DNA of 28,606 nucleotides, from the IMG/VR virus record IMGVR_UViG_3300024923_000002, positions 1 through 28,606 of that record. One strand, written 5' to 3'. Below are positions 10,676-25,639 of the stretch, piece by piece. A program made the translations under genes and the position numbers. Position 1 is the stretch's first letter. Each line of letters opens with the position of its first letter. This DNA comes from a virus. Below the pieces are notes generated by a model. That model did no database searches. It was given only the letters and a program-made list of their open reading frames with translations, and was not told the origin of the DNA.

Positions 10676-11440
10676 TTACGCAGACTGCCACTTCTTAATG
10701 CGATAAGGATTGTTGCTGCCCGGTTGTGTCACCATAAAACCAGACAAGTCCAACTCGGAGAATTTATCCGACATAAAATCAACCGGTGAACTGGGCGTCA
10801 GATGCGCCTCGTCAATTTCGATTTCGACATTTTCGCCGTCTGCCTTATTAACCCCATCAATCAGAATATAGGCGACAACCTCGGTCGTAGTCGCCGCGAC
10901 GGTTGCAAACCCTGAATAAGCCGCACAGGCATAATCAATATGCAATGACTCGGCGTTGGTCATAGACCCTGTTGACAGCGGCTGAATCATGCCCACCGCG
11001 TAATTTACGGTATAGTCCGTGCCTTCAACATAAGTCACCAAATCAGTAGCCGTATCGGTTACCACCACGGATCCGGCGGTAATATTGCGGTTAACCAGTT
11101 TTACAAAGCAATCCAGCTTTGCCGCAATAACCTCATTAGTCACCGTTTGCGCACCGCCGCTTAATACCGACGATTCGCCCATCATGGCGATGGCCATCAT
11201 TTTTGAGTTAAATGCCGAGAATTTCAGCTTTAGCTCTGCCGGTTCCTGCGTTGATGCCACAGCGGTTACCTGTCCCTCGGTTGCCCGATCCTTCGAGATT
11301 TGCGTAATCACTTTTGCTTTAGGCGTGACATTAAAATCGATCACCCCCGGCACTTGTTTTAATCCCTGGAATACGCCATTGATTTTAGTGTTGATATAGA
11401 CGGTGCCCTTGATCTGTAGTGCGCCAGTTACTTCAGTCAT
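10676..11440 (-). CDS. Major tail tube protein, 254 aa
   Basis: The product is a 254-residue beta-rich protein. It starts with a segment of the type ALQIKGTVYINTKING and ends with SDKFSELDLSGFMVTQPG, patterns I associate with tail tube proteins of Mu-like siphophages. It would form the hexameric rings around the tape measure. A GGAG motif lies about 11 bases before the start. The position between the tail terminator/short connector genes and the tape measure gene agrees. No contractile sheath gene is found beside it, which favours a non-contractile tail. Confidence 0.72.
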   Translation of the reverse strand: MTEVTGALQIKGTVYINTKINGVFQGLKQVPGVIDFNVTPKAKVITQISKDRATEGQVTAVASTQEPAELKLKFSAFNSKMMAIAMMGESSVLSGGAQTVTNEVIAAKLDCFVKLVNRNITAGSVVVTDTATDLVTYVEGTDYTVNYAVGMIQPLSTGSMTNAESLHIDYACAAYSGFATVAATTTEVVAYILIDGVNKADGENVEIEIDEAHLTPSSPVDFMSDKFSELDLSGFMVTQPGSNNPYRIKKWQSA

Positions 11441-11442
11441 AA

Positions 11443-11625
11443 TTATTTAACTCCAGCTGATTTAGGCGTTACAACGCCACGGTTGCGCAACCAGTTAGCT
11501 TGCGCCTCAGTTACGTTGATCTTGTCGCCCTGCTTGCAGGGCTGGCCGCCATGCGTATGTGGCATTAACAGCGTCACCTCAAGGGTGGTCGCAGGTTTTT
11601 CGGTTTTTCCGGGTAGTTCAGCCAT
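11443..11625 (-). CDS. Short conserved late protein, 60 aa
   Basis: I choose the ATG at 11625 because AGGAG lies seven bases upstream. A longer in-frame start at 11664 has no such signal. The product is about 60 residues with a segment HTHGGQPCKQGDKINVTEAQANWLRNRGV-like in layout: a small domain with a C-terminal helix-turn ending in Gly-Val-Val. Proteins of this pattern are common between the tail terminator and tail tube genes of Mu-like phages, but their role is not known to me. Confidence 0.65.
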   Translation of the reverse strand: MAELPGKTEKPATTLEVTLLMPHTHGGQPCKQGDKINVTEAQANWLRNRGVVTPKSAGVK

Positions 11626-11660
11626 TGGGCCACTCCTGATGATTAATGGATTGTTGAATT

Positions 11661-12131
11661 TCACAGCGGCAAGGCGCTGCCGGTAGTGATGACTTTCGTT
11701 GAAAACAGCGCTGGAAGATGTGCAAACCCGTTATCGTCCGTAGCGCGGTAGGGGGCTTTTTGCCGGTGCAACTCGCTGTGATCCGGCGATAATAGGAATC
11801 CTTGCAACGCAACCAACGCGTTCAGAAGAATCAGCCCGGCATCCTGTCTAGCCGCATTACCGGCATCGGCGACATTTTTTGCGGAGACGATGATCAGCCA
11901 AAATTGCTCGCTGCTTTGAACCTTGCCGCGCTGAGACTGGCCGCCTGGAGTAAGGTCGGGCACATCGTCAAAAAAAATCACATTGACCGAGCCGTCCAGG
12001 GCATTTTTAGTTACCCACGCAGGAGACGGCGCAGGGCGGATTTTATTCGCGGCGGCAACCTGCTCATCAATCAGACGCTGAATAATCAGCCCGGATGCAG
12101 AGAGAAAATTACCGAGCACAGCGCAGCTCAC
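11661..12131 (-). CDS. Gp37/DUF1834-like tail terminator protein
   Basis: The product resembles the gp37-like (DUF1834) family of Mu-like phages, thought to act at the head-tail connector or tail terminator. Features are an N-terminal helix (LIIQRLIDEQVAAA), a central strand pair with FWLIIVSAKN, and a C-terminal part that includes DNGFAHLPALFSTKV. No ATG is available at the N-terminus. The start is GTG, either at 12131 or at 12119, and the latter has GGTGAG seven bases upstream and may be the real one. Expected neighbours (gp36 upstream, tail tube downstream) are present, but here a lectin module intervenes. Confidence 0.72.
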   Translation of the reverse strand: MSCAVLGNFLSASGLIIQRLIDEQVAAANKIRPAPSPAWVTKNALDGSVNVIFFDDVPDLTPGGQSQRGKVQSSEQFWLIIVSAKNVADAGNAARQDAGLILLNALVALQGFLLSPDHSELHRQKAPYRATDDNGFAHLPALFSTKVITTGSALPL

Positions 12132-12263: not shown

Positions 12264-12668
12264 CTAAAGCGCCGCGGCAGACAAAAATAACGCATCCAAC
12301 TGGTCGGCCGACCAGCCCATTTCGCCCGCAACTTCCAAAACAAGCGCGTTATCGCGCAGCAATACTACAGCGTATTCCCACTCGATCTGGGCCGCCGGCG
12401 ACATTGAGGACACTGCATCAGATACCGCGTTCAGCAGCCCCGCCTGGAGCAGCGCCAACCGAGCCTGCCGCATAGTGATCGATCCAGGAGCTACCTCGCT
12501 CATATCGACCGCGACGGCATCTATAATGACCCACGCACCATCCTGCCAAAAACACCCTGAAACAGCTCGATCATAGTCCGGCGCAGGTATTCCGGCTCGC
12601 ATCATCCACGACGACGGCGTGTCAATAACTATATGCTCACCCGTATAGGGGCTGTAAATATCATTCAT
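12264..12668 (-). CDS. Tail-fibre-associated (chaperone-like) protein, 134 aa
   Basis: The C-terminal half has the pattern of a short domain often found in genes directly after phage fibre genes. It has ITMRQARLALLQAGLL, then a helix with AAQIEWEYAVVLLRDN, then a final helix LDALF. Such proteins are usually annotated as tail-fibre assembly or attachment proteins. The N-terminal half holds GCFWQDGAWVIID, a small beta segment. It follows the lectin-type receptor gene by 17 bases, which fits a chaperone or partner of that protein. Confidence 0.55.
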   Translation of the reverse strand: MNDIYSPYTGEHIVIDTPSSWMMRAGIPAPDYDRAVSGCFWQDGAWVIIDAVAVDMSEVAPGSITMRQARLALLQAGLLNAVSDAVSSMSPAAQIEWEYAVVLLRDNALVLEVAGEMGWSADQLDALFLSAAAL

Positions 12669-12685
12669 ATTAGACGCCTAAATGC

Positions 12686-13750
12686 TCAATTAAATTGCAT
12701 GTGATCGCATGCGGCTCGCAAGCCGTAGCCCCAGCTAGATGTCGACGGTAGGCTGCTCCATACCGACGTTCGAGATCCGCAGTTGGCGCCTCCCGAACGC
12801 ACGCCGCCCAACACGACACGCGTGTTACTGTTGTTGAATATCTGACCACGCCCACCATTGCTGGCCCACGCAAACGCCGCTGCCGCTTGGGTGCCTGTAT
12901 TGCTGCCCCACACATGGATGTGCCCGCTTGCTTGTTCCACACCGTATTTGCTGGTAAATCCAGCATTACGCCGCGTTGTCGGATATGTTGCGTTGGTCGA
13001 GTCAATCGATTGGTTTTCGGTCACGCCAAAAGCTGCGGTAACAAACTCGCTCTCTAGCAGTAGACGCTTACCGTGCGCTCTGGCAAGTTCGTTCGCCACC
13101 CACCAATTTAGCGACGCATAAGTGGCGGTGCCATCGCCGCCAAACACAGCCGGTATTTTCGGTAGCACAGTACCAGATGCCATATTCGATCCAGCGGCAC
13201 TGGTGCCGTTGGCATCTGTGTCGCTGTTGCACAGATATATATCTACCCAGACGTTATTAGCCAGCGTCATACCTTTCGCGCTGCCGGCTATAGGCCTAAA
13301 TTTTGCGTCGTAAATGCTGTATTGATTGATCCCGGCAATCCGGTCAACATCCGCTTGCGTCCATATCATGCCGTCACCGGATGTCGTAAATAATCCGCCT
13401 GCGACCGTTTCTCCAACCGCAACCAGTCCGTGGTGGAACCCGCCGATTAAACGACTATTGTTCGTCGTGTATCCGGTCGGGCTAGTAAAATTAGAGTCCG
13501 CCCTGACACTACCGTCAGAGCACACATAGATAGCGTAATCGATGCCACCGTTAAGCGCGGGCATAACGACAGCGGTGTCGGCCCTAAATTTAACCAGATC
13601 ATTCCCAACAGCCAGCCATGTGTCCGCTTTTATGCTCAATGCGCCCGCGGCGGTTTTGGTGAAAACAGGGCTAAATGAGTCCGCCTTATCAAACACCAGA
13701 CGACTATTGGCCTGGCGACCGCTCGCGCTCGTCAATATAGTCACACCCAT
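12686..13750 (-). CDS. C-type-lectin-fold receptor-binding protein, DGR-target type, about 354 aa
   Basis: I place the start at 13750 (sequence MGVTILTSASGRQ), because the longer frame to 13828 would overlap the upstream gene. The C-terminal about 110 residues carry hallmarks of the formylglycine-generating-enzyme/C-type-lectin fold used by diversity-generating retroelement targets: WWVANELARAHGKRLL, then GGRGQIFNN, then the final block LGGxxxGG..GSR..W...PS.S.G.R..CDHM. In such proteins (Mtd of Bordetella phage is the classic case) the last block is the variable ligand-binding surface. Residues 1-200 are probably a virion-attachment or beta domain. A chaperone-like gene follows. No reverse transcriptase, Avd or template repeat is recognisable in this window. 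Confidence 0.72.
   Translation of the reverse strand: MGVTILTSASGRQANSRLVFDKADSFSPVFTKTAAGALSIKADTWLAVGNDLVKFRADTAVVMPALNGGIDYAIYVCSDGSVRADSNFTSPTGYTTNNSRLIGGFHHGLVAVGETVAGGLFTTSGDGMIWTQADVDRIAGINQYSIYDAKFRPIAGSAKGMTLANNVWVDIYLCNSDTDANGTSAAGSNMASGTVLPKIPAVFGGDGTATYASLNWWVANELARAHGKRLLLESEFVTAAFGVTENQSIDSTNATYPTTRRNAGFTSKYGVEQASGHIHVWGSNTGTQAAAAFAWASNGGRGQIFNNSNTRVVLGGVRSGGANCGSRTSVWSSLPSTSSWGYGLRAACDHMQFN
12689..12811 (-). other. Variable-region-like 3' end of the lectin gene
   Basis: This 41-codon segment encodes LGGVRSGGANCGSR, then TSVWSSLPSTSSWGYG, then LRAACDHMQFN. Framework positions (LGG, GSR, W, PS, G-x-R, CDH) match DGR variable regions I know, and the residues between them are where adenine-directed variation normally falls. 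No second, adenine-rich copy (template repeat) of this segment was found on either strand of the window. Confidence 0.55.
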
Positions 13751-13752: not shown

Positions 13753-14100
13753 CTATGCCCCTAACGTTACAGTGACCGCCGCCGAAGCGCCGGAAATAGC
13801 CGTCAATTTGGCATACATGTAAGGCCACTCGGCGCTAATGTAGTCGCCCGCGCTGTCAGACGCCGTTCCAGATAGAGCCATCGTAAGCAGTAGCGCGCCG
13901 CCGCTAGAAAATGAATTGTTTGAGCCGTATACCTCAACTGTCGCCGTCACAACGCCGGTGCCGCTTACGACCGACTGAATCGTGCGTCCTCCGGCACCGA
14001 CAGCAACAAGCTCCCCTGTCTGCGGCGCATTTGCCGCGTCAAGCATCTTGACGACCGTTTTGCGCCGCTCGGCCTTAATGTCATAAGCGAGATGTGTCAT
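13753..14100 (-). CDS. Small head/late protein, 115 aa
   Basis: The 115-residue product is beta-rich and Gly/Ala/Ser-rich, ending in an AEWPYMYAKLTAISG-type segment followed by VTVTLGA. This ending recurs in phage structural proteins I have seen, without an assigned role. It begins eight bases after the gp36-like gene and ends two bases before the lectin start. It may be a small capsid-decoration or attachment protein. The function is unknown. Confidence 0.6.
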   Translation of the reverse strand: MTHLAYDIKAERRKTVVKMLDAANAPQTGELVAVGAGGRTIQSVVSGTGVVTATVEVYGSNNSFSSGGALLLTMALSGTASDSAGDYISAEWPYMYAKLTAISGASAAVTVTLGA

Positions 14101-14108
14101 GTTTGCTC

Positions 14109-14540
14109 CTAAAAATCTGCCAGTCTCTCACGGGTAAATACCCGGTCAGCGCTGGTTTTAGTAAATTCAACATCGCCCACACCACTTGCAGCAGTCGTAG
14201 CGGGACTACCTAAGTCAAGATCGACCAACCCTTTGACATAGTTATCGAGCTTTTTAATCTCCCGCTCGAATGCTTCTTTAACCGGTTCCGGCGCTACATC
14301 GACGTGCAGCAAAAAACGCGTGATGTTAGCGGCAATGCGTGTCAGATCGGTTGATGATGTTGCAAGAGGCACTGTCCAACCCTTAGCGCGTAAGCGTTGA
14401 TTAATCTCGGCATCGGCGGCATCAATAGCCGCATCCAATACGGCGTCATCGACCACGCCGGCGTTTTGACGGTCGGTGAGCTGAATTAGCTCAGCGTCAC
14501 CGAATGCCTTCTTTAAATCTGCATATGAGCAATAGGGCAT
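14109..14540 (-). CDS. Gp36-like protein (DUF1320), 143 aa
   Basis: The product matches the gp36/DUF1320 family of Mu-like phages, probably a head completion or connector protein. Family features visible are the N-terminal YCSYADLKKAFGDAEL, the LTDR...VDDAVLDAAI segment, the helix DAADAEINQRLRAKGW, and the RIAANITRFLLH helix. Length is normal for the family. It lies after the gp35-like gene, as in Mu relatives, but separated from it by an 87-bp gap with two hairpins. Confidence 0.88.
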   Translation of the reverse strand: MPYCSYADLKKAFGDAELIQLTDRQNAGVVDDAVLDAAIDAADAEINQRLRAKGWTVPLATSSTDLTRIAANITRFLLHVDVAPEPVKEAFEREIKKLDNYVKGLVDLDLGSPATTAASGVGDVEFTKTSADRVFTRERLADF

Positions 14541-14557
14541 TGTTTGATGTCCGGTTG

Positions 14558-14584
14558 CATAAGGTGCGCACTGCGCACCTTATG
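14558..14584. repeat. Perfect 13-bp stem hairpin between gp35- and gp36-like genes
   Basis: CATAAGGTGCGCA (14558-14570) and its exact complement (14572-14584) flank a one-base loop. The sequence resembles dispersed GGTGCGCA palindromes in bacterial genomes, so it may be a host repeat that entered the phage. On either strand it would form a very stable RNA hairpin just before the gp36-like gene. Confidence 0.75.
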
Positions 14585-14597
14585 AAGAAAATATTTC

Positions 14598-14620
14598 GGA
14601 CGGGACATCTTGCCCCGTCC
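14598..14620 (-). terminator. Possible attenuator/terminator hairpin
   Basis: GGACGGG (14598-14604) pairs with CCCGTCC (14614-14620). On the minus strand the stem is followed by GAAATATTTTCTTC, which is T-rich but not a clean U tract. It could partly terminate or slow the late transcript after the gp35-like gene. Confidence 0.35.
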
Positions 14621-14627
14621 AGCGCAA

Positions 14628-14927
14628 TTATTTCTTTCTGGCTTTTGCTGTGGAATTGTCACCGGCATCAAGTTCGTTACCGGTATCGGCTTTGTCACCT
14701 GCATCAGGTTCGTTACCGGTATCGACTTTGTCACCGGCATCAGGTTCGTTACCGCTATCGGTTTTATCAACGCCTACCATACCCGCAACAATAACCCCGG
14801 CCGCTAGAAGCTGCTCAAGCTGCTGTTCGGTAAAATCTTCAGCATCCAACTCATCACCGGGCTCATAATTAACGCCGTCATGGCATATATTATCCAGCGC
14901 CACCCAACCCGCTATTTGGGTGCTCAT
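14628..14927 (-). CDS. Gp35-like protein with acidic repeat tail, 99 aa
   Basis: Residues 1-50 resemble the small N-terminal domain of Mu gp35-like proteins (HI1506/FluMu type), with GVNYEPGDELDAEDFTEQQLEQLLAAGVI. Residues 55-90 are three copies of a 12-residue acidic unit KxDTGNEPDAGD, and a basic STAKARKK tail follows. It starts with a four-base overlap on the end of the major capsid gene, so its translation is coupled. A head-associated role is likely. The repeat tail is not part of the family core and has probably expanded recently. Confidence 0.7.
   Translation of the reverse strand: MSTQIAGWVALDNICHDGVNYEPGDELDAEDFTEQQLEQLLAAGVIVAGMVGVDKTDSGNEPDAGDKVDTGNEPDAGDKADTGNELDAGDNSTAKARKK
14658..14765 (-). 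repeat. Three tandem 36-bp coding repeats
   Basis: Three in-frame 36-bp units encode KTDSGNEPDAGD, KVDTGNEPDAGD and KADTGNELDAGD. The plus strand shows the alternation CATCAGGTTCGTTACCGGTA and variants. The units are nearly identical, so copy number may vary by slippage. Confidence 0.85.
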
Positions 14928-15895
14928 GACGCCACCGCATTATGGAAGTGATAGCCCGCCTCTTTAGCGATAATCAACTCGTCCAATTGCTCGACGACTT
15001 TAACGACTTGACCGCCCTTGACGCCTGTACCGGATTCCTGCCGCGTACTGGTTTGGCGATTGCCGAATTCCGCAGTCAAGGCAAAAAACGGCTCAACGAA
15101 ACCTTGCACAGACTGTACATTCCGTGAAACGCGCAAAAACGACGCATGATTACCCCACAATGGGACTTTACTGGCGGCTTGGCCTTTTTTAGCAGCATTG
15201 GCAAAGGTCTCGCCGACATGGATTTCATCCAGTTCCAGCAGATCGGCGACCGCTTGTTTGGTCAATACGCCTTTAGCGGCCATTCCGCCTGCACCACTGG
15301 TACGGTTTAAGGCCATCGCCACCGCTTCAGGATGCATGCGTAAAAACCGCCACACACGCTTGTTAAAAACCGCCACATTGGGCCTGACGATCATGCTGTC
15401 CAGCACCTCCAAAATCTGCGTAATGGGCGTAGAATTAGTATGATCAGACCATTGGTCGGTGCCGCTTAACGTCGTCCGCAATCCCGCCTCATAGCTGTTT
15501 AAATCCTGATACAGATTGCTTACACGGCGCTCACGGCCAAGAGAGATCAAGATTGACAAGCCTGTTGTTGCGATGCTGAGCGGATCGAAGTTCGCACCGG
15601 CCGCCCGCGCAACATCAATATCTTTTTGCGGGATAAAATCCTCCAAGCCCCAGTCTTTTGTTCTCGCCGGTACATCATGTGCACCGAATTCCACCTGATT
15701 CGCTGCCGATTTACGGCCGATATGGGTATCAACCTCGGTAAACAGCACATCCGAATCCAGCTGCGTGTACATAAACAATTCGGCCGGAACGGGAACCCGA
15801 GGGCAAACCTGATCGGCAATCATCCCGGTGGGGGATGTGGCCAGCGCGATCTGACTAAGCCGCGGTTGTACTTCAAAGGGATAATTAGTAGCCAT
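14924..15895 (-). CDS. Major capsid protein, 323 aa
   Basis: The 323-residue product has the layout of HK97-fold capsid proteins of B3/D3112-type Mu-like phages: an N-terminal arm with Pro-rich strands, an IGRKSAANQVEFG...DWGLEDFIP segment, a helix with GRERRVSNLYQDLNSY, a P-domain-like strand with RPNVAVFNKRVWRFLRMHP, and a C-terminal LDELIIAKEAGYHF. It is flanked by the small capsid-associated gene upstream and the gp35-like gene downstream, as expected. It contains two EFG tripeptides (QVEFGAH, AEFGNRQ), a motif also repeated in the protease/scaffold. Confidence 0.82.
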   Translation of the reverse strand: MATNYPFEVQPRLSQIALATSPTGMIADQVCPRVPVPAELFMYTQLDSDVLFTEVDTHIGRKSAANQVEFGAHDVPARTKDWGLEDFIPQKDIDVARAAGANFDPLSIATTGLSILISLGRERRVSNLYQDLNSYEAGLRTTLSGTDQWSDHTNSTPITQILEVLDSMIVRPNVAVFNKRVWRFLRMHPEAVAMALNRTSGAGGMAAKGVLTKQAVADLLELDEIHVGETFANAAKKGQAASKVPLWGNHASFLRVSRNVQSVQGFVEPFFALTAEFGNRQTSTRQESGTGVKGGQVVKVVEQLDELIIAKEAGYHFHNAVAS

Positions 15896-15904
15896 GATAT
15901 GTCC

Positions 15905-16276
15905 TTAACCTTGCATAACACTGGGTGCGATGCGCATCCAGATGACATCGTTTAAAACGCCGGATACGGTTGCGTACCCAGCAATATGCGTATTAACACC
16001 CGCCGCCGGAGCCGCCGTAACCGCCAGCCCGTTAGCATCGGAAGTCAATTTGTCGCCGCGCGTCACCGTGCCGCCTAAACGCACCTCGACACAATCGTCA
16101 ACAATAATGTCGGCACGATCGCCCAATACGCCGCCGATATTGCCATTACCGCCGATAATCAAATCAGTTGGGCCGGCGGCTGGAACAACAACCCCGTCCG
16201 CTGCTCCGAATTTAATCAGCTGATACGGATCAGTATCTGCCCCCAGTGCATAATTGATAGATTCGCCTTCTCTCAT
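15905..16276 (-). CDS. Small capsid-associated (DUF2190-like cement) protein, 123 aa
   Basis: The 123-residue beta-rich protein has the pattern of capsid cement proteins (DUF2190-like). Gly-rich strands include VRLGGTVTRGDKLTSDANG and a C-terminal IAGYATVSGVLNDVIWMRI. These coat the outside of the capsid. The ATG overlaps the protease stop as ATGA, so it is translationally coupled, and the capsid gene follows nine bases later. The order protease, cement, capsid supports the call. Confidence 0.72.
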   Translation of the reverse strand: MREGESINYALGADTDPYQLIKFGAADGVVVPAAGPTDLIIGGNGNIGGVLGDRADIIVDDCVEVRLGGTVTRGDKLTSDANGLAVTAAPAAGVNTHIAGYATVSGVLNDVIWMRIAPSVMQG

Positions 16277-16791
16277 GACTTCACCTTGTCCACATTGGCA
16301 GTAACGGCATCGACCGCATCAGCCGTGCTGATATGGATGCCGAATTCAAGTTGCTTGGCTTGATAAGCGACGGCCCGTTGCGCAATCGCTTTATCGCTGA
16401 CCGCCTGGGCTTGCTTGTCATGACCGGCAATCTCGCCGAATTCCACTTGTTTAGGCAGCTTGGCTAAAAACTCTTTCCGGAACCAGTCCAGTCCGTTGAT
16501 TTTAGTTTTAGCGTCGCCCTCGCCGAACTCGATCACATCGGCCGGTTTTTCAGCGGCCATAAAAGCCACCAAGCCGTCTTTATCGCGCGGCAATATCTTG
16601 CCTTCGGTGATCAGTGATTCTACAAAGGCGCTCGTGGCGCTCAATTTTGTAGCAAACTCGATTTGCGCAAGCTTGGCTTCGCGCTGGCCGAACTCGGCTT
16701 CTTTGGCCGTCAGCTGCTCTTGTTGTGCAGCAATGTCTTGCTGCTTTTTATCTAGTTCCGCCTGTTTAGCGGCGATTTCTTCGGGGGTCAT
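16273..16791 (-). CDS. Z: Nested scaffold protein (Mu gpZ-like), 172 aa
   Basis: An in-frame ATG at 16791 begins MTPEEIAAKQAELDKKQQ, exactly where the coiled-coil scaffold starts, and GGAG lies five bases upstream. In Mu the scaffold Z is made from an internal start within gene I, so this is very likely the equivalent. It would build the prohead shell and then be removed by the protease. It overlaps the protease gene in the same frame. Confidence 0.7.
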   Translation of the reverse strand: MTPEEIAAKQAELDKKQQDIAAQQEQLTAKEAEFGQREAKLAQIEFATKLSATSAFVESLITEGKILPRDKDGLVAFMAAEKPADVIEFGEGDAKTKINGLDWFRKEFLAKLPKQVEFGEIAGHDKQAQAVSDKAIAQRAVAYQAKQLEFGIHISTADAVDAVTANVDKVKS

Positions 16792-17298
16792 AGTGGCTCC
16801 AGGGTTTGAGGGGGTAGCGGTATCGGCCTGCGCTGCGCTGCCGGTTGTTTCGGATTCGCCGAATTCGATAATGATTGCATCGCCGCCATCTGCAAATTCC
16901 GGCGCAGCCAGCCCTTGTACGGCAGGCGGGTGCGCACCCAGAAAGCCCACATGACGCAGGTAATACACGCCGGGGACGGGGTTGTTAGGACTATCGGGAT
17001 GGTAAAAAGCGGCGGAGATTTTTGGGAACAACTTATCGTTGACCATTTGCCCGAAGGCCGGATAGACATCTTTGGGGATCGCCGACAAAATGCCGTCGGC
17101 AAACGCCAACGAGGCTACCCAGCCAAATGCGGGGCTATCGGTCTGGGGATGACCGACCACCAACGGCGCATCTTTCAGCGCTGGGTCATAGGCCGTTGCG
17201 GTCGCAACAACATCGGCTTCGGAAAACGTCAGCGCATCACCACTCATCGTAGTGTGCGTGCCGGGCTTAAAAATTTGGATGAGGTTATTTTTTTTCAT
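16273..17298 (-). CDS. I: Mu gpI-like prohead protease/scaffold
   Basis: The N-terminal about 140 residues fit the Mu I-type head maturation protease, with an IFKPGTHTTMSG opening, LVVGHPQTDSPAFGWV, and YYLRHVGFLGAHPPAVQGL. The C-terminal part (about 170 on) is a Glu/Lys/Gln-rich coiled coil typical of the scaffold. Two ATGs are possible: 17319 gives 348 aa, but 17298 fits the usual family N-terminus (MKKNNLIQIF). Neither has a strong ribosome site. EFG motifs recur at five places in the scaffold half (152, 209, 264, 293 and 325 by the longer numbering). It is the first remaining gene of the late operon. Genes that should precede it are absent. Confidence 0.85.
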   Translation of the reverse strand: MKKNNLIQIFKPGTHTTMSGDALTFSEADVVATATAYDPALKDAPLVVGHPQTDSPAFGWVASLAFADGILSAIPKDVYPAFGQMVNDKLFPKISAAFYHPDSPNNPVPGVYYLRHVGFLGAHPPAVQGLAAPEFADGGDAIIIEFGESETTGSAAQADTATPSNPGATMTPEEIAAKQAELDKKQQDIAAQQEQLTAKEAEFGQREAKLAQIEFATKLSATSAFVESLITEGKILPRDKDGLVAFMAAEKPADVIEFGEGDAKTKINGLDWFRKEFLAKLPKQVEFGEIAGHDKQAQAVSDKAIAQRAVAYQAKQLEFGIHISTADAVDAVTANVDKVKS

Positions 17299-17333
17299 GG
17301 CGCTCAGTGTAGCGGCCATGAATGAACGGGGGC

Positions 17334-17352
17334 ATCCGAAGTCGTTCGGAAG
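17334..17352. repeat. Palindromic repeat ATCCGAAG-NN-GTTCGGAAG, right copy
   Basis: Same palindrome as at 12228-12246, differing only in the two central bases. It lies just upstream of the first late gene and directly beside the foreign-looking cassette region. Confidence 0.7.
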
Positions 17353-17377
17353 GGGATTTTAGCGGGGGACGTGTGAC

Positions 17378-17401
17378 ACTATAGCAAAATACAACCTGAG
17401 C
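17378..17401 (-). promoter_or_regulatory. Possible leftward promoter before the head genes
   Basis: On the minus strand TATAGT at 17383-17378 can serve as a -10 element, with a poor TTGGTT-like -35 about 18 bases upstream. The predicted transcript would begin about 50 bases before the protease start. Without it, the late operon has no visible promoter after the packaging genes were lost. Confidence 0.25.
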
Positions 17402-17540
17402 AACCAACGCAAATAAGGGTTCCGACCATTTATAAACGCGCAGACGGGGCGTTTAATCAATTAACGATGCGATACAAGCGTTGAGGTTGATTTGCAGCTG
17501 TACGCGGTTTTACTTAGACCCAACCAACCCAGGAGACACC

Positions 17541-17762
17541 ATGACTATCCCATACGTTTCAGAACAAGTCGCTCATGAAAAAGCTCTGGCGCTGGCTGCC
17601 CAACTGGAGGGCTTAGCGATTAGCCAAGCGCTTTACATCCTCCAGGAACTCACCCCGCAGTTAATCACCAATAGCCATCGTATTACCAAAGACGCCATTA
17701 TCGCTGCTGGAGAGCAATTACTTTCTGGCGGCAATACGTGTCGGCGCATAACGCCCTGGTAA
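17541..17762 (+). CDS. Small cassette-type ORF A, 73 aa
   Basis: AGGAGA lies just before the ATG at 17541. The 73-residue product is helix-rich (HEKALALAAQLEGLAISQALYILQEL) with no signal peptide or known motif. Its stop codon lies inside an attC-like structure that begins at 17746, as is usual for integron gene cassettes. It runs opposite to the adjacent late operon. A longer in-frame start at 17481 has no ribosome site. The function is unknown. Confidence 0.6.
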   Translation: MTIPYVSEQVAHEKALALAAQLEGLAISQALYILQELTPQLITNSHRITKDAIIAAGEQLLSGGNTCRRITPW

Positions 17763-17832
17763 AGGGCGCGCATGAATGAAACCGAACAACGCGCTGAACT
17801 TTAGGCGCGTCCCGTTGACCAGAGAGTTATAC
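17746..17832 (+). other. Candidate integron attC site A (87 bp)
   Basis: GCATAAC (17746-17752) pairs with GTTATAC (17826-17832) at six of seven bases. CTGGT (17756-17760) pairs with ACCAG (17818-17822), and GGGCGCGC (17764-17771) pairs with GCGCGTCCC (17805-17813) with one bulged T. The right end, G^TTATAC, keeps the core-site GTTA start but departs from the strict GTTRRRY consensus. The stop codon of ORF A falls inside the left arm. Paired boxes, a bulged base and length all agree with an attC recombination site. Confidence 0.6.
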
Positions 17833-17853
17833 CCAATACGCACAGGCAGAACT

Positions 17854-18003
17854 ATGAATAGAATCATCAACTGGATAAGAACCGGCGACGCAGAGTTAAA
17901 TTATCCGCTGGACGATTATGATAGAGAACGTCATAAATTCCACTGGATCGCTCTGGTAGTGACTTTAGCGGCTTGGTTTTTTACTATTTACGCAATTGTA
18001 TAA
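17854..18003 (+). CDS. Small membrane protein, cassette ORF B, 49 aa
   Basis: The ATG at 17854 is preceded by AGGCAG and gives a 49-residue protein. It has a charged N-terminal part (INWIRTGDAELNYPLDDYDRERHKF) and one C-terminal transmembrane helix (HWIALVVTLAAWFFTIYAIV). It sits 21 bases from the core site that opens cassette B. Its TAA stop lies in the left box of the next attC-like site. It is probably inserted in the inner membrane. The function is unknown. Confidence 0.62.
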   Translation: MNRIINWIRTGDAELNYPLDDYDRERHKFHWIALVVTLAAWFFTIYAIV

Positions 18004-18117
18004 CGCCATGTTCAGGCGACCGCCTGAGGAAAGACCTTAACAGCAAGATGAACTTTGAAACGCACATATTTTAAACAGCGCTCGCGTCGGCGGGTCGCCT
18101 GCAACTAACTGTTAGGC
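17998..18117 (+). other. Candidate integron attC site B (120 bp)
   Basis: Left box GTATAAC (17998-18004), six-base spacer, TTCAGGCGACC (18011-18021), long variable centre, GGTCGCCTG-C-AA (18093-18104) with one extrahelical C, six-base spacer, and right box GTTAGGC (18111-18117), which fits the GTTRRRY core. The left box is the exact complement of GTTATAC, the sequence that opens cassette B at 17826. That is expected if cassette B was once a free circle. This is the strongest attC candidate in the window. Confidence 0.75.
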
Positions 18118-18123
18118 TTAACA

Positions 18124-18291
18124 ATGTCTCCAGAAGAATTTATTAAAAGAGCAAATAAGGCAAATAATAACTTGGAAGAAATTGACCAGCTCTGCTATTT
18201 GTGGCTTGAGCAAAAAGCGGCTCAATGGCAAAAGAACGGCAGAATAGCTGTAGATGCGCTTCAAATATTTAAACGCCTTACCGAAAATTAA
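18124..18291 (+). CDS. Small cassette-type ORF C, 55 aa
   Basis: The ATG is six bases after the core site GTTAGGC, a spacing typical of integron cassettes, and there is no clear ribosome site. The 55-residue product is Asn/Lys/Glu-rich and helical (EEFIKRANKANNNLEEI, then WLEQKAAQWQ). The gene is clearly more AT-rich than the phage genes on both sides. No family is recognised. Confidence 0.6.
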   Translation: MSPEEFIKRANKANNNLEEIDQLCYLWLEQKAAQWQKNGRIAVDALQIFKRLTEN

Positions 18292-18300
18292 AGCGCAAGC

Positions 18301-18307
18301 CCCTAAC
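18301..18307 (+). other. Remnant left box of a third attC-like site
   Basis: CCCTAAC matches six of seven bases of the complement of GTTAGGC, the sequence that opens cassette C. No matching right box was found downstream, so the site appears truncated. Confidence 0.35.
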
Positions 18308-18376
18308 GCGAAATAGGCACACAAACCGGCGTCTATCACAACAAACACACCGTTTTATGCAATAGTTGAAACGTTT

Positions 18377-18424
18377 GGGACGGGGTTGCAAACCCCGTCC
18401 CGCCCAGCCAACGCTGGAGCGTTG
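18377..18424. repeat. Two consecutive hairpins, host-repeat-like
   Basis: GGGACGGGGTT (18377-18387) and AACCCCGTCCC (18391-18401) form an 11-bp perfect stem with loop GCA. It is followed by CAACGC/GCGTTG (18409-18424) with loop TGGA. These resemble intergenic repeats of host chromosomes and could also act as a bidirectional transcription block between cassette ORF C and the next gene. They lack an adjacent U tract. Confidence 0.6.
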
Positions 18425-18470
18425 CGGGATGCATACGATACAACGATACATATTTTCTTTAGGAGACACC

Positions 18471-18647
18471 ATGAACACACTCACCCCACAAGACAAACTC
18501 GAACTGGCTACACGAATCAACCAATTGATGGATGATTTCTTTGCCGAAAAACAATGTCGGCCGGATGAGGATGTATTGCTGCTGGCATTTCATGCCCGCG
18601 CTGACATCAGTACCCGACGCTGCCTATTAAGCAACCGGTTCGATTAG
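18471..18647 (+). CDS. Small hypothetical protein, 58 aa
   Basis: A clear AGGAGA ribosome site precedes the ATG, and the 14 bases AGGAGACACCATGA are identical to the leader of ORF A at 17531. The N-terminal about 45 residues look real (LTPQDKLELATRINQLMDDFF). The C-terminal end overlaps the convergent leftward gene by 21 bases and may be a truncated tail. No family is recognised. It is possibly the upstream edge of the foreign block. Confidence 0.5.
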   Translation: MNTLTPQDKLELATRINQLMDDFFAEKQCRPDEDVLLLAFHARADISTRRCLLSNRFD

Positions 18648-18827
18648 CCTCTTGAAAAGCTGATACAAATAATTCACCAGCATTTCATAATCCGAGGTCT
18701 CCTTGTTAACGCAGGCGGCCTTAGCTTTGTAGGTAAGATCGCCCAACATCGCACTCTTGTTATGCGCCAGATCAGCGGCCGTCTGCGCCGCCAATTTCAA
18801 TAGTTCAATTTGCGTTTGTTCGTTCAT
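18627..18827 (-). CDS. Small helical protein, 66 aa, leftward
   Basis: GAGAGA lies seven bases before the ATG at 18827 (a second in-frame ATG at 18833 is directly adjacent to it and less likely). The product is all helical: QTQIELLKLAAQTAADLAHNK, then YEMLVNYLYQLFKRLIEP. It is transcribed in the same direction as the repressor, just after it, so it may be in the lysogenic transcript. It overlaps the end of a rightward gene. The function is unknown. Confidence 0.6.
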   Translation of the reverse strand: MNEQTQIELLKLAAQTAADLAHNKSAMLGDLTYKAKAACVNKETSDYEMLVNYLYQLFKRLIEPVA

Positions 18828-18895
18828 TATCATTCTCTCGGTTTGGGTTTGGCGGCAATGACCACTATTGAATTAACAAGTGCGCTAGTTAAACG

Positions 18896-18908
18896 CTTAA
18901 GTTAAGTT
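18896..18908. promoter_or_regulatory. Possible second repressor operator
   Basis: CTTAAGTTAAGTT shares CTTAAGTT with the palindrome in the early promoter. It lies between the repressor end and the start of the small leftward gene. It could be a secondary operator. This is inferred from the short match only. Confidence 0.3.
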
Positions 18909-18923
18909 GCTTAGTGGGGCGTT

Positions 18924-19316
18924 TTAAGCCCTTTTTTTCCTCCCTTGTTGCGTCTCATCCTTGTTGTCCGCTTTAGCGGCTATAAAGGCCATGCGTTTGA
19001 TGGCCTCCTGATCCTCCTTGGCGCAATGCTCGACGTTATCCAGTAGCGCGGCTTGGTCGGGTCTGAGCACCCGTGCCCCGGGCAAGGTTCCTGAAGAGAT
19101 ACCAGTCAGGATGTATTGCACGTCGGCACCGGCTGCGGCAAATGCGAACAAAACTTCTCCTCCTGGAACTGCTATTCCTCTCTCGTATTTACCCCACATT
19201 TCCCTGCTAACACCACATAACTCGGCGGCCTCGGCCTGATTTAAGCCAAGATCTTTCCGTGCGGTTTTTAAGCGTTCAGCAGAATGCGATAAAAAGTTCT
19301 CATCAATATTTGACAT
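18924..19316 (-). CDS. Cro/CI-type HTH repressor, 130 aa
   Basis: Residues 13-70 form a typical XRE helix-turn-helix: RLKTARKDLGLNQAEAAELC followed by GVSREMWGKYERGIAVPGG. The remainder is helical with a basic tail (GRKKRA). It is transcribed leftward, divergent from the early operon, and its ATG overlaps the -35 of the rightward promoter. This fits a lysogeny repressor that shuts off the early genes. No clear ribosome site precedes the start, so translation may be weak or nearly leaderless. The length (130) is shorter than lambda CI and lacks a protease domain. Confidence 0.8.
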   Translation of the reverse strand: MSNIDENFLSHSAERLKTARKDLGLNQAEAAELCGVSREMWGKYERGIAVPGGEVLFAFAAAGADVQYILTGISSGTLPGARVLRPDQAALLDNVEHCAKEDQEAIKRMAFIAAKADNKDETQQGRKKRA

Positions 19317-19338
19317 AGATAACTTAAGTTCTCATAAT
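19310..19338 (+). promoter_or_regulatory. Rightward early promoter with internal operator
   Basis: TTGACA (19310-19315), a 17-bp spacer and CATAAT (19333-19338) form a near-consensus promoter reading toward the gp16-like gene at 19392. The spacer contains the perfect palindrome AACTTAAGTT (19321-19330), a natural site for a dimeric repressor that would block RNA polymerase. The -35 overlaps the repressor start codon on the other strand. Confidence 0.75.
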
Positions 19339-19391
19339 TAACACAACACGAACACAAACCAAACGCTGACCAACTTTAACCGGAGCGAGTC

Positions 19392-19604
19392 ATGACAACA
19401 CAAACACAAAAAACACCCGACGAGGTCAAAGCCGACTTTCTGGCCAAGGGCCTCACCATTTCCGGCTGGGCGCGATCCAACGGCTATAAGCCGCGCGAGG
19501 TCTCCCTAGTCCTAAACGGCCAAGTCAAAGGCCGTTACGGCAAAGGCCACGATATAGCCGTGGCCCTGGGCATTAAACCGCACCCCGACCAAGCCGCCGC
19601 TTAA
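19392..19604 (+). CDS. BcepMu gp16-like DNA-binding regulator, 70 aa
   Basis: The 70-residue product fits the BcepMu gp16 family of small phage-associated DNA-binding proteins: DEVKADFLAKGLTISGWARS, then NGYKPREVSLVLNGQVKGRY, then GKGHDIAVALGI. It is the first gene of the early operon and faces the repressor, the slot taken by Ner in Mu, so it probably turns down the early and repressor promoters. GGAG lies about eight bases before the start. Confidence 0.82.
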   Translation: MTTQTQKTPDEVKADFLAKGLTISGWARSNGYKPREVSLVLNGQVKGRYGKGHDIAVALGIKPHPDQAAA

Positions 19605-19658
19605 TACGTATCCCTACTTACGTCACTTTACCTAAATAAAACTACTGAGGACACCCCT

Positions 19659-19988
19659 ATGAGCACTACCGATCAATCCCTAAAAAACACGCAGCTTTCC
19701 CCAGTGGATGCGAAAGCTATCTCCGATGCATTGATGCCTACTTATTTAGTAAACGCAAAGCGCCTGCAAGCTCTGCGTGACCAGATTGCCAGCCTTCGTC
19801 AGGGTGCGAGCTGCCCAGCTGATCCAGGTCTTTTGCCAGGGCTTCAAGGTTTACGTAGTCTTGCGCGGCCAGATGGTGCGCTAACGCCGTATACGCACTG
19901 CTTTGCACCGCCTGCGCCAGCGAAATTCGCGACATTTCGGCAAGCAGTTGTTCGGCTATGTTCGCGATTTGTTCATTGGCATTCATAA
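19659..19988 (+). CDS. Early-operon ORF, 109 aa, 3' part doubtful
   Basis: GAGG precedes the ATG and the first 26 residues (STTDQSLKNTQLSPVDAKAIS) look coding. From 19738 onward the frame overlaps, on the opposite strand, a well-formed leftward gene with its own ribosome site. The rightward C-terminal part is Pro/Cys/Arg-rich and probably not natural. A 5' fragment of an early gene interrupted by the leftward gene is one reading. Confidence 0.35.
   Translation: MSTTDQSLKNTQLSPVDAKAISDALMPTYLVNAKRLQALRDQIASLRQGASCPADPGLLPGLQGLRSLARPDGALTPYTHCFAPPAPAKFATFRQAVVRLCSRFVHWHS
19738..19986 (-). CDS. Small helical protein, 82 aa, leftward within early operon
   Basis: GAGAGAG precedes the ATG by about six bases on the minus strand. 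The product is a plausible helical protein (NEQIANIAEQLLAEMSRISLAQ, then LEALAKDLDQLGSSHP). It is antisense to most of the adjacent rightward frame and points toward the repressor. It resembles in size, composition and orientation the leftward genes at 18627 and 20655. The function is unknown. Confidence 0.6.
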   Translation of the reverse strand: MNANEQIANIAEQLLAEMSRISLAQAVQSSAYTALAHHLAAQDYVNLEALAKDLDQLGSSHPDEGWQSGHAELAGALRLLNK

Positions 19989-20031
19989 AGCTCTCTCATT
20001 TTTTAAAAGTTAATTTACCGAGGATTTAGCC

Positions 20032-20361
20032 ATGCCCCAACAACACAACACCCCAAGCCTGCCCAAAGTAATGCATGTCCGATTTCTGGAGATTATCGCC
20101 AGCGACATCAACGACCTGATCAACCGTAAAGCAGATAAACCGCTGTTAAAAGCCAATCTCCGTGTATTGCGCGGCCTAATCAGTAGCTTGGCGCTCGCTT
20201 ACGCCGATCAATACTGCGAGCGTTCTCAGTATTTTTCGCCGCAGCTTGAACAACTCAGATCGCTCTTGCCCAACGCCATCGATGACCAGGTGGACTGGCT
20301 GAGCGCCCTACTTGCCGCGCAGCAATTTGTAGCTCGCGAATTAGACCAGATTAAGGAGTAA
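20032..20361 (+). CDS. Early-operon helical protein, 109 aa
   Basis: GAGG lies eight bases before the start. The 109-residue product is largely helical (VMHVRFLEIIASDINDLINRK, then LLKANLRVLRGLISSLALAYADQY) without recognised motifs or membrane segments. It is followed by a small gene whose ribosome site AAGGAG lies in its last codons. It is part of the early transcript. The family is not recognised. Confidence 0.6.
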   Translation: MPQQHNTPSLPKVMHVRFLEIIASDINDLINRKADKPLLKANLRVLRGLISSLALAYADQYCERSQYFSPQLEQLRSLLPNAIDDQVDWLSALLAAQQFVARELDQIKE

Positions 20362-20366
20362 TCAAC

Positions 20367-20522
20367 ATGCCCCAACCCAGCGCAACCCCATTACAAACTG
20401 CCCAAGCCAAGCAATTGGCCGCCCGGCGCAAAATCCAGAATCTACCCCAACAGCCGCCAAGAGCCGCGCTACCGGATACTATCAACTGGCACGACCACTA
20501 CCTAAAACGGGTGGCGAAATGA
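20367..20522 (+). CDS. Small basic protein, 51 aa
   Basis: AAGGAG precedes the ATG at 20367. The 51-residue product begins MPQPSATPLQTAQAKQLAAR and ends INWHDHYLKRVAK. It is Gln, Ala and Pro-rich and basic. Its stop overlaps the start of the next gene as ATGA, so the two are translationally coupled. The function is unknown. Confidence 0.55.
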   Translation: MPQPSATPLQTAQAKQLAARRKIQNLPQQPPRAALPDTINWHDHYLKRVAK

Positions 20523-20950
20523 GCACAGCGCATAATGCCTTAGGCTTTTCGCCTGACGATGCCGTTATTGGCAATAACGCTAAAGCCAGCCCTGATGTTA
20601 TGGATATGGTAGAGCGCATGGTTCAAGAGGGCACGCGCAAAAATGGACGCCGGATCACGAGTCACCGGGAGGCTTTGCGAGTTGTGCAAGACGTTTTTGC
20701 CATGACACAACATCCATCTCACGAAATCCCTTGGGTTCACCCTTCGAGTAATCATCAAGCCACTCCTGTAGCTCACGAATCGCCATCTCTGCATGCTCAG
20801 CCGGAAAAGCCTGCATTAGTACACCGACCAGTGCATTTAGCTTCCAGATATAGCCTGAGTCGCTTTCCTGTACCCGCTCCAGTTCGTCGATTCTATCGAG
20901 CAATGGCTGCTGGGCTTTTTCAATTTCGTGCTGTATGGCGGCAAGAATGA
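20519..20950 (+). CDS. Early protein sharing a transposase DNA-binding motif
   Basis: Residues about 33-54 (EGTRKNGRRITSHREALRVV plus QD) align with residues 80-101 of the transposase at 23114 (EGYRKNNRKITSLKEAIQVL plus RD). That is about half identical, within the N-terminal DNA-binding part. The first about 60 residues therefore look like a small DNA-binding domain. From about 20655 the frame overlaps a convergent leftward gene, and its C-terminal Pro/His/Arg-rich part may not be natural. The start overlaps the preceding stop. A regulator that competes for transposase or operator sites is a possible role, as inference. Confidence 0.5.
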   Translation: MSTAHNALGFSPDDAVIGNNAKASPDVMDMVERMVQEGTRKNGRRITSHREALRVVQDVFAMTQHPSHEIPWVHPSSNHQATPVAHESPSLHAQPEKPALVHRPVHLASRYSLSRFPVPAPVRRFYRAMAAGLFQFRAVWRQE

Positions 20951-20960
20951 TCGGATTCAT
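20655..20960 (-). CDS. Leftward coiled-coil protein within early operon, 101 aa
   Basis: GGGGA lies six bases before the ATG on the minus strand. The product has an N-terminal coiled coil (AAIQHEIEKAQQPLLDRIDE) and an acidic helical middle (AEMAIRELQEWLDDYSKG), a convincing protein sequence. It is antisense to the 3' half of the preceding rightward frame. A minus-strand TTGCAT-17-CACAAT pair upstream could be its promoter. The function is unknown. Confidence 0.65.
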   Translation of the reverse strand: MNPIILAAIQHEIEKAQQPLLDRIDELERVQESDSGYIWKLNALVGVLMQAFPAEHAEMAIRELQEWLDDYSKGEPKGFREMDVVSWQKRLAQLAKPPGDS

Positions 20961-21071
20961 CGTGTTTCCCCAAGTTGATTTAAGTCGGGGTTATTTTCGC
21001 ATTGTGCAACGCCGTCGCGATATATGCAAGATTGGTTTTTGTTTGGAAGCCGCTCAGGAGTGCTATCCCCA

Positions 21072-21548
21072 ATGAGCCAGCGAAATTGGAAACGGACGCA
21101 ACCCCGCGATTTACGGGACGCGATGGACTTATGCCTGGAATACGCGAAGGTCAAGCATAACCGTTCCGTTGACACCGTTGCTGACCTGATGAGCTTAGCC
21201 AGCAAATGGACGCTGTATAAGTGGATACAGGAAGCCAGCATGCCGGCCCGATCGATAAAAGGCTTTGAACACGCCTGCGGCATTGATTACGTCAGCCGCT
21301 GGTTGGCGATGAGCGGCAATAAGCTGGTGATCGATATACCCAAAGGTCGCAAAGGCGGGCCGGAGGACATTCAGGCACTGCAATCCGCCAGCCATGACGC
21401 GATCGGAGCCCTGATGAAATTTTACGAGGATAAAAGCAACGCCGAGGAAACTTTGGCAGCACTACAAACCGCCTTGGAGCGCATGGCTTGGCACAAGGGC
21501 AATGTTGAAAAATATAGGCAGCCAGAGCTGCCGTTTGATGAGGAGTAA
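21072..21548 (+). CDS. Putative DNA-binding early protein, 158 aa
   Basis: I prefer the ATG at 21072 (MSQRNWKRTQPRD), with AGGAG 13 bases upstream. A longer frame starts at 21024. Residues about 35-75 look like a helix-turn-helix (VDTVADLMSLASKWTLYKWI, then SIKGFEHACGIDYVSRWLA). The C-terminal half is helical and acidic, ending QPELPFDEE. Similar proteins occur in early regions of transposable phages. A regulator or replication accessory is likely but not proven. Confidence 0.65.
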   Translation: MSQRNWKRTQPRDLRDAMDLCLEYAKVKHNRSVDTVADLMSLASKWTLYKWIQEASMPARSIKGFEHACGIDYVSRWLAMSGNKLVIDIPKGRKGGPEDIQALQSASHDAIGALMKFYEDKSNAEETLAALQTALERMAWHKGNVEKYRQPELPFDEE

Positions 21549-21553
21549 TGGCT

Positions 21554-21730
21554 ATGAATAAAGATGATTTGGCATACGCACTCGCTAAACAGCTACCGAG
21601 CATGGAGCGGGGCTTTGAGATCGCTACTTCTTACGGCACGTTTACCATTGAAGCCGAGGATTCCGCCCCGGTCATTAAAGCGCTGACCAAAATACTGGCA
21701 CGCAAACTGGCCACATTGGCAAAGGCTTAA
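21554..21730 (+). CDS. Small early protein, 58 aa
   Basis: AGGAG (in the last codons of the preceding gene) is eight bases before the ATG at 21554. An ATG at 21548 is too close to it. The 58-residue product contains a short beta segment GTFTIEAEDSAPVI between two helices. It lies tightly in the early operon. The family is not recognised. Confidence 0.6.
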   Translation: MNKDDLAYALAKQLPSMERGFEIATSYGTFTIEAEDSAPVIKALTKILARKLATLAKA

Positions 21731-21732
21731 GC

Positions 21733-22032
21733 ATGGCTACGCAAGATATTAAAAGCGCGGTCAAAGTGTTTGCGGTGCTGGATGTACTGCTACGCAACTT
21801 CGCGCACGGGTTCAGCCCTAAAGAATTGATCGAAGCCACCTGCTTTAGCGGCACCGACATTACTCGCTATGTCAATACACTGGTACAGGTGGGGTATGCC
21901 GAACGCATTCAGGACACAGGCAGAATTAGGCCGAGCGAGCGATTGGCGAGGCAGGCGGTACTGATATTGAATTCACTTAATGCCGCCGAAAAACAATTGG
22001 CGGAACTCAATCAACGTATTAACAGGATGTAA
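21733..22032 (+). CDS. Winged-helix (IclR-type HTH) regulator, 99 aa
   Basis: The product fits an N-terminal IclR-like winged helix without the ligand domain: VFAVLDVLLRNFAHGFSPKEL, then TDITRYVNTLVQVGYAERI, then a beta wing TGRIRPSERL. A C-terminal coiled coil (AAEKQLAELNQRINRM) may dimerise it. Two bases separate it from the previous gene, and its last base overlaps the next start. It is probably a DNA-binding regulator of phage genes. Confidence 0.72.
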   Translation: MATQDIKSAVKVFAVLDVLLRNFAHGFSPKELIEATCFSGTDITRYVNTLVQVGYAERIQDTGRIRPSERLARQAVLILNSLNAAEKQLAELNQRINRM

Positions 22033-22034
22033 TG

Positions 22035-23111
22035 ATGAGCAATACCACCACGCCCGATAATGCATTAACACCTACGCAAGAGGCCAATGTTCAGCAACTG
22101 GTTGAAGCCGGTAACCAGATGTCGCTTGCCAATGCCGCAGTTATGCAGAGTTTTGATGTAATCAAGTCCCTGGGCCGTATTGAGGCCGCTAACTTTTTTA
22201 CGACCGTCGGAGATAAGTTAATTGCAGAAACGGCCATAAATATCCGTGATGGCAAGCAATACAAGGGGTTGCCGTACAAAGACGAAAACGGAAATCTCCG
22301 ACAGGTCGGAGATTTCCCAGAATTTTGTAAAGTTTTCCTGGGTAAATCATACACCAGAACAATGGAGTTAATTGGTAATCACAATTTATTGGGCGCTGAT
22401 TTATACGAGCAAGCAGAACGCCTCGGCTTTCGCCAACGCGACTACAACGCGCTCAAGACATTACCAGCCGATGACCGCCAAATCATCGCCCTGGCAATAG
22501 AAGCCGAAGACCTGGACAAAGCCCTAGACCTGATGCAACAACTCGCCGCCAAGCACCAGCGCGAGAAAGAGGCGGCAGCCAATGAGCTGGCAAAAGCGAC
22601 AGCATCGCTGGTGGATCTTGACCTTATCGTCAAAAATAAAAACGAATTGCTCAACCAAGCCACGGACAAACTGGTTTTGCTGGAAGCCGCCAAACGCACA
22701 GAAATCTCTGAAGTGTATATGCCGGGGCATGTTCAATTGACCGCCCTGCAAGATTATACGCGGCGTCTGACATCGATGATTACCGCCACGCTAAACAGCG
22801 AAATTATCAAGCTGTATAAAGAATTTGAAGGCCAGCCGCCCAAGCATATCGAACTGGCGGCACGGCAGTCGGTTGGGCTGATTGTTACCGCCGCTTACGG
22901 TGTCGCCGAAAACATGGGTTTTGAACCGATTATGGAGCCTGAACAGGCGGCAGACGAACCCGGCAGGGCTGAAGCCAAGGCATTTGAAGCGTATATGGCG
23001 ACACAGTGCAATACGGCAGAGGATTTTGATGATTTTTTTGACGATGCCCCCGCTAAGGTAAAACCGACGAAAAGGGCGCAACCTGTCGCCGATACTGACA
23101 CTGGCGAATAA
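22035..23111 (+). CDS. Early protein with coiled coil, 358 aa, before transposase
   Basis: AGGATG lies five bases before the ATG at 22035; an adjacent ATG at 22032 overlaps the preceding stop. The product begins with a helical N-terminal domain with RIEAANFFTTVGDKL and a middle segment with KVFLGKSYTRTMEL. A long coiled coil follows (about 170-235, rich in Lys, Glu and Ala) and the C-terminus is acidic. I recall related proteins in early regions of transposable phages but no proven function. It is separated from the transposase gene by two bases. Its coding sequence includes a perfect 13-bp hairpin at 22290-22317. Confidence 0.6.
   Translation: MSNTTTPDNALTPTQEANVQQLVEAGNQMSLANAAVMQSFDVIKSLGRIEAANFFTTVGDKLIAETAINIRDGKQYKGLPYKDENGNLRQVGDFPEFCKVFLGKSYTRTMELIGNHNLLGADLYEQAERLGFRQRDYNALKTLPADDRQIIALAIEAEDLDKALDLMQQLAAKHQREKEAAANELAKATASLVDLDLIVKNKNELLNQATDKLVLLEAAKRTEISEVYMPGHVQLTALQDYTRRLTSMITATLNSEIIKLYKEFEGQPPKHIELAARQSVGLIVTAAYGVAENMGFEPIMEPEQAADEPGRAEAKAFEAYMATQCNTAEDFDDFFDDAPAKVKPTKRAQPVADTDTGE
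22290..22317. other. 13-bp perfect inverted repeat inside a coding gene
   Basis: GGAAATCTCCGAC (22290-22302) and its exact complement (22305-22317) are separated by two bases, AG. In RNA it would be a very stable hairpin. In DNA it is a symmetric site for a dimeric protein. It encodes the stretch around GNLRQVGDF of the upstream gene, so coding sense is kept. Confidence 0.85.
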
Positions 23112-23113
23112 CC

Positions 23114-24877: not shown

Positions 24878-24901
24878 CCGTCATTAAACGAAGATAAAAC
24901 G

Positions 24902-25078: not shown

Positions 25079-25107
25079 TAGCACGTAGGATGTGCTGAAC
25101 AGAGTGA

Positions 25108-25133
25108 AGCGCATCAATCGCGACCGATGCGCT
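25108..25133. repeat. AGCGCATC/GATGCGCT hairpin, host-repeat-like
   Basis: An 8-bp perfect stem (25108-25115 and 25126-25133) with a 10-base loop lies after the AT-rich gene. It is preceded by GTAGGATGTGCTGAACAGAG, a sequence style I associate with dispersed proteobacterial repeats. It could modulate the early transcript between the transposase and downstream genes. Confidence 0.6.
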
Positions 25134-25161
25134 AACCAATCAATACGAAAGAGATAAGAAC

Positions 25162-25638: not shown

Positions 25639-25639
25639 C

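Follow-up and report, generated by a model that had tools for sequence, protein, structure and literature searches.

A putative Mtd-type receptor-binding protein with a frozen variable region and no diversity-generating retroelement in a Mu-like phage fragment

Introduction

How does a phage gene come to end in what looks like the variable region (VR) of a diversity-generating retroelement (DGR) target when the other DGR parts are missing beside it? This question is raised by a 28,606-base IMG/VR record, here called the window, which is a fragment of a Mu-like phage and carries as Mu-like traits Mu Gp36, head genes, a transposase and a MuB-like transposition ATPase. An initial annotation had placed a VR at 12689-12811 and offered three accounts of the missing retroelement: that it was lost with a deleted block, that it acts in trans, or that the segment is a frozen relic. 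We compared the window with 33 related IMG/VR loci and one genome-contig locus, designated by L numbers. The latter comes from a Sideroxydans MAG, and the phage host is only hinted at by this single match, which would point to Gallionellaceae. When the first 25 kb of the window were compared at the DNA level with 50,697 phage records, no match was obtained.

Results

The open reading frame (ORF) at 12686-13750 on the minus strand encodes a protein of 354 amino acids, which was recognized as an Mtd homologue by profile, homology and structure-chain matches. It matched Pfam mtd_2nd in a profile search (E 8e-21) and the tail protein phrog_11262 (E 2.5e-92), and Mtd of phage BPP-1 aligned with it at 42% identity across 94% of the protein (E 8e-59). 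The solved Mtd chains 1yu0-1yu4 and 2iou matched with E values of about 1e-61 (best 6e-62). Judged by these alignments, the ORF belongs to the Mtd receptor-binding protein family, and its homology makes receptor binding the most likely function. An AlphaFold2 model built from 18 sequences reached a mean pLDDT of 41 and was discarded. The gene is a mosaic: the N-terminal stalk (about 13400-13750, minus strand) is partly L003-type, with 13400-13700 common to the L003-type alleles, and the C-terminal lectin-type head (12686 to about 13400, minus strand) has its only close match in L002.

The protein ends in LGGVRSGGANCGSRTSVWSSLPSTSSWGYGLRAACDHMQFN. The framework LGG..R..G...GSR....W...PS...W..GLR..CDH, which the initial annotation had taken for a VR on a lectin-type protein, is indeed present at 12689-12811 on the minus strand of this ORF, where the homology to Mtd goes far beyond chance, and it aligns with the BPP-1 VR (1yu0) and with 17 relatives. 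The annotated span holds for the framework, but alignment of the template repeats (TRs) of the relatives narrows the VR-equivalent core to 105 nt at 12704-12808 (minus strand; GGVRSGGANCGSRTSVWSSLPSTSSWGYGLRAACD), and 11 of its codons line up with variable codons that contain adenine in these TRs. By themselves, the framework letters are no proof of DGR action at the window VR.

The mtd homologue is preceded by an ORF of 115 amino acids (13753-14100, minus strand; about 95% DNA identity with L007) and followed, after a gap of 17 nt (12669-12685, minus strand), by an ORF of 134 amino acids (12264-12668, minus strand). The latter has no annotated family function and is called chaperone-like from its position and character; its product is a probable tail-fibre assembly or chaperone partner. 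Elsewhere in the window, a 36-bp tandem repeat in 3.2 copies (14656-14769) lies within ORF 14628-14927 (minus strand) and gives a repeated D/G-rich tail, EPDAGDKVDTGN, and a tail-region ORF at 2157-2609 contains the repeated peptide motifs GDLLETRCG and LSARCGIVYG.

As already read from the letters, the window contains no reverse transcriptase (RT), Avd-like gene or TR. Across the 28,606 bases of this fragmentary record there was no RVT_1 match, a cognate RT protein and the RT of L007 found nothing, and avd, RT and the 19 TRs of the relatives gave background-level matches only. The same was true of the bAvd of L007; in the window, the chaperone-like gene adjoins mtd instead. The record holds no second VR copy, and hence none of the kind proposed in the initial annotation, differing at adenines and lying near an RT. 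Rfam gave no match, and no TR with the window VR framework was detected in IMG/VR, where framework patterns retrieved the L002 VR only. About 15 kb of L007 lie outside the part covered by the window, and the one RVT_1 match of L007 is that of its own cassette.

Among the 34 relative records, 19 have an RVT_1 match, and the RT-bearing relatives show the gene order mtd, avd, TR, RT. The L007 cassette, which sits between mtd and the chaperone-like gene, contains bAvd (E 1.4e-28), TR and RVT_1. Adenine-directed diversification is direct and clear in this family, because in RT-bearing relatives with an identified TR the own VR differs from the own TR at 9-15 adenines and at only 0-1 other sites (4 in L024). 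Five further loci (L018-L020, L022, and L023) have an RT-less mtd on contigs of up to 39.5 kb without RVT_1, and their VRs match the TRs of relatives at nearly all non-adenine sites; they probably represent recent, independent DGR losses. The mtd of L006 (8001-9065, near the contig end) equals that of L007 outside the VR, but its VR is the one found in L003-L005, which have a different stalk; either VRs and heads have been reshuffled among alleles, or the assembly is responsible. A T7 record matching Mtd (L044, LR745708.1, 121-2178) was set aside, as its annotation describes an artificial chimaera of gp17 and Mtd and it represents no natural relative.

The backbone of the window (head genes, repressor, transposase, and MuB-like ATPase; 14091-28606) is identical to L007 at every base, and L007, L008 and L009, which come from three IMG datasets, all show 100% identity with the window at 14091-21751. 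Position 14090 is the first difference from L007 after 14.5 kb of perfect identity. From there, identity is about 95% at 13.7-14.09 kb, falls to about 65% across mtd and into the chaperone-like gene for its first 100 bp, and returns to 99-100% at 11300-12078 (minus strand, tail terminator region) before dropping again in the tape measure gene. L007 carries another mtd allele (68% amino acid identity with that of the window) with avd, TR and RT behind it; the L007 homologue of ORF 12264-12668 sits after the RT and is 79% identical; the 5' end of this ORF lies inside the swapped island, where identity with L007 rises from 65% to 94%. The replacing island measures about 2 kb (about 12.1-14.09 kb) and comprises the mtd head and the start of the next gene.

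The same island of divergence appears between L002 and L003. L002 combines a window-type mtd (95% amino acid identity, no RT) and chaperone-like start with a backbone that resembles that of L003, a locus with the cassette. The window-type allele is known from two contigs only, the window and L002, and the 14090 junction was seen in one contig, the window; its exact upstream pattern occurs in no other IMG/VR contig. Since the island is flanked on both sides by near-identical DNA, for which a single false join is insufficient, these comparisons mark the DGR difference between the window and L007 as a module swap confined to about 12.1-14.09 kb. The proposal that the retroelement went with a deleted block therefore stands as regards the missing cassette and fails as regards the block. 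L007-L009 share the protease-repressor junction of the window in the same order and at 100% identity, so no deletion is needed to account for the gene order; the window simply stops, and the terminase, portal and minor-head genes of L007 sit past its right end.

Over the 480 bases that precede the VR, 11 differences separate the heads of the window and L002 (dN 0.013, dS 0.057), and none of the 11 variable codons differs. Their VRs are separated by three base changes, all synonymous (dN 0, dS 0.11). In the matched control pair L025-L027, 10 of 11 variable codons differ at 16 of 480 head differences, and the RT-bearing pairs L003-L007, L017-L021, L017-L026 and L021-L026 have distinct VRs (4-8 of 11 codons) on heads without any difference in 480 bases. 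The identical VRs of L003 and L006, considered as a counter-example, proved uninformative, as the heads of this pair are also identical (0/480). Because the VR has accumulated synonymous changes of its own at a rate like that of the rest, the identity between the window and L002 is not accounted for by a recent transfer of just this segment. Thus, adenine-specific variation, which the initial annotation had suggested looking for among relatives, is absent between these two loci, and the window VR is frozen.

The framework has also drifted. The window VR shows 22 non-adenine mismatches in 81 sites to its nearest TR, whereas the VRs of RT-bearing loci show at most 15 to foreign TRs. Relative to the head, the non-adenine divergence of the VR is 0.71 in the window and 0.69 in L002, compared with 0.21-0.37 in RT-bearing loci; the rate of drift of the window framework is about twice that of its RT-bearing relatives. 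Three of the eight codons that are AAC in the TRs of relatives end in A in the window, which is unexpected from an AAC template, and such A-ending codons at adenine-derived positions (GGA, GTA, and ACA) fit drift and also a different TR. The window Mtd is under purifying selection, so a functional receptor protein of fixed specificity is a likelier reading than debris. Both observations by which the initial annotation would have rejected its proposal, no DGR-type RT and no clustering of differences at adenines, hold for the window record; of its suggested frozen relic, "frozen" survives and "relic" is the less likely part.

In BPP-1, an inverted repeat just past the VR is needed for efficient homing, and disruption of this hairpin cuts tropism switching over 1000-fold (PMC3240598). 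The motif GCGNAAGC, which was picked after viewing the sequences and is thus descriptive, lies 3-5 nt past the stop codon wherever the mtd end of an RT-bearing relative is readable. It occupies, together with avd, TR and RT, the place of the 17-nt gap of the window, and is absent after mtd in the window, in L002 and in the RT-less L018-L020, L022 and L023. A generic hairpin scorer placed the best window hairpin at shuffle level; it was too noisy to separate the loci. Since the motif is absent and only 17 nt separate mtd from the next ORF, action on the window VR in trans is unlikely. Perfect post-mtd hairpins (GGCGGC-GAAA-GCCGCC) were also seen at the Mtd homologues of L025 (4918-5952) and L027 (5488-6510), the pair whose variable codons differ at about 3% head divergence. 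L027 has no RT within its 17-kb contig, and both genes are candidate targets of a remote DGR.

Discussion

How, then, did this VR arise? We consider it probable that the window encodes a fixed-specificity Mtd which stems from a DGR-bearing ancestor, lost the DGR and spread by module exchange. The Mu-like phage would thus encode an Mtd-type receptor-binding protein minus its retroelement. Its lectin head would descend from a DGR-bearing Mtd by loss of RT, Avd, TR and the target hairpin after the VR, and the VR would have become an ordinary binding surface kept by selection. The RT-less head, together with the 5' end of the chaperone-like gene, would move between backbones via homologous recombination, and the island would have taken the place of an active mtd-avd-TR-RT cassette in a phage that is almost the same as L007 in all other respects. 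The predicted effect is a fixed host tropism without tropism switching, so that tropism could change only via slow mutation or via head swaps through recombination. In this account, the homology, the absence of the DGR parts from the record, the replacement island, the frozen VR and the missing hairpin are observations; from these we infer the direction of change (loss), the fixed receptor-binding function and recombination as the route.

The direction was addressed with a tree of heads from which the VR had been removed. In this tree, the window and L002 nest inside the RT-bearing heads (93/94; moderate support) as sister to L003/L007 (93/81), and the RT-less state needs about four changes, at least two of them forced by strong branches. 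On this basis, loss is favoured over ancestral absence of the DGR. It is unlikely that the lineage never had a DGR and that the protein is an ancestrally fixed lectin-type protein whose VR-like framework is demanded by the fold. RT-less Mtd proteins of complete cultured phages (S-CBS1, S-CBS3, and P12026) would agree with such a history, as would the strong drift of the window framework and its "PS", which is shared with BPP-1 while close relatives have "PW"; the nested position of the window and L002 heads speaks against it, and the RT-less S-CBS phages keep a perfect hairpin after mtd, suggesting past DGR use.

Could the pairing of mtd and backbone instead be an artefact, the window being an assembly chimera of two phages? 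The window is a single metagenome-derived record, its perfect identity with L007 ends abruptly at 14090 in a junction pattern absent from other IMG/VR contigs, and several contigs of relatives (L028, L030, and L031) terminate inside mtd. We nevertheless regard a chimera as quite improbable, as 99-100% identity resumes for about 800 bp on the far side of the island, unlike in a single mis-join, and L002 independently has the RT-less mtd-chaperone junction in another backbone; moreover, the RT-less state holds whether or not the 14090 junction is genuine.

One of the accounts first offered, action in trans, would have the window VR still diversified by an RT and TR in another part of the phage genome, in its host or in an L007-type phage infecting the same cell. 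In its favour, DGRs can have remote targets, which fragmented metagenomes fail to show (PMC8144416), part of the phage genome lies outside the window, and RT-bearing sister phages with the same backbone exist. We regard it as very improbable: the variable codons of the window and L002 are identical despite their head differences, without any adenine-specific change, the nearest TR mismatches at many non-adenine sites, the post-VR hairpin is absent, the searches of IMG/VR for the window framework found the L002 VR but no TR and nothing else, and the sister genome L007 has no second RT.

A fixed Mtd derived by DGR loss thus remains our preferred reading. A broader proposal is possible, if on balance doubtful: within a single natural population, active DGR modules and fixed RT-less heads may be exchanged between nearly identical genomes. 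If this holds, exchange via recombination in mtd and the chaperone-like gene would make host-range hypermutation a swappable on/off trait at the population level. The comparison of frozen and diversifying pairs at similar head divergence offers a simple way to examine other orphan DGR targets.

RT-less Mtd and incomplete DGR cassettes are already known. The Synechococcus phages S-CBS1 and S-CBS3 and the Marinomonas phage P12026 have an Mtd homologue in complete genomes without RVT_1, with only 32-33% identity to the window Mtd. Unlike the window, S-CBS3 (L039, after 6002) and S-CBS1 (L042, after 3954) retain a perfect hairpin, CGGCGC-GACA-GCGCCG, one base past the mtd stop, possibly as a relic or as a mark of a remote DGR target; nothing on the S-CBS3 mtd was found in the literature. 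Incomplete cassettes have been described in crAss-like phages (PMC7290462), which are unrelated to the window, have a tail-collar fibre target and lack a Mu-like backbone. Mtd of Bordetella phage BPP-1 (1yu0) is homologous to the window protein at residues 18-352, shares the lectin-type VR framework and likewise sits among tail genes, but the window protein has a shorter N-terminal part and its gene has no avd-TR-brt behind it, no post-VR hairpin and no adenine-specific variation. The sister Mu-like cassettes of L003 and L007-L009 have mtd in the same position, encode an Mtd 68-74% identical to that of the window and, in L007-L009, share a nearly identical backbone; unlike the window, they possess bAvd, TR, RT and hairpin, and their VR/TR mismatches fall almost only at adenines. 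We found no description of a near-isogenic pair with and without the cassette in the literature searched. The window and L007 form such a natural pair of a frozen receptor protein and an active DGR, with a second pair in another backbone, and with pairs of this kind it can be tested when phages keep hypermutable host recognition and when they give it up.
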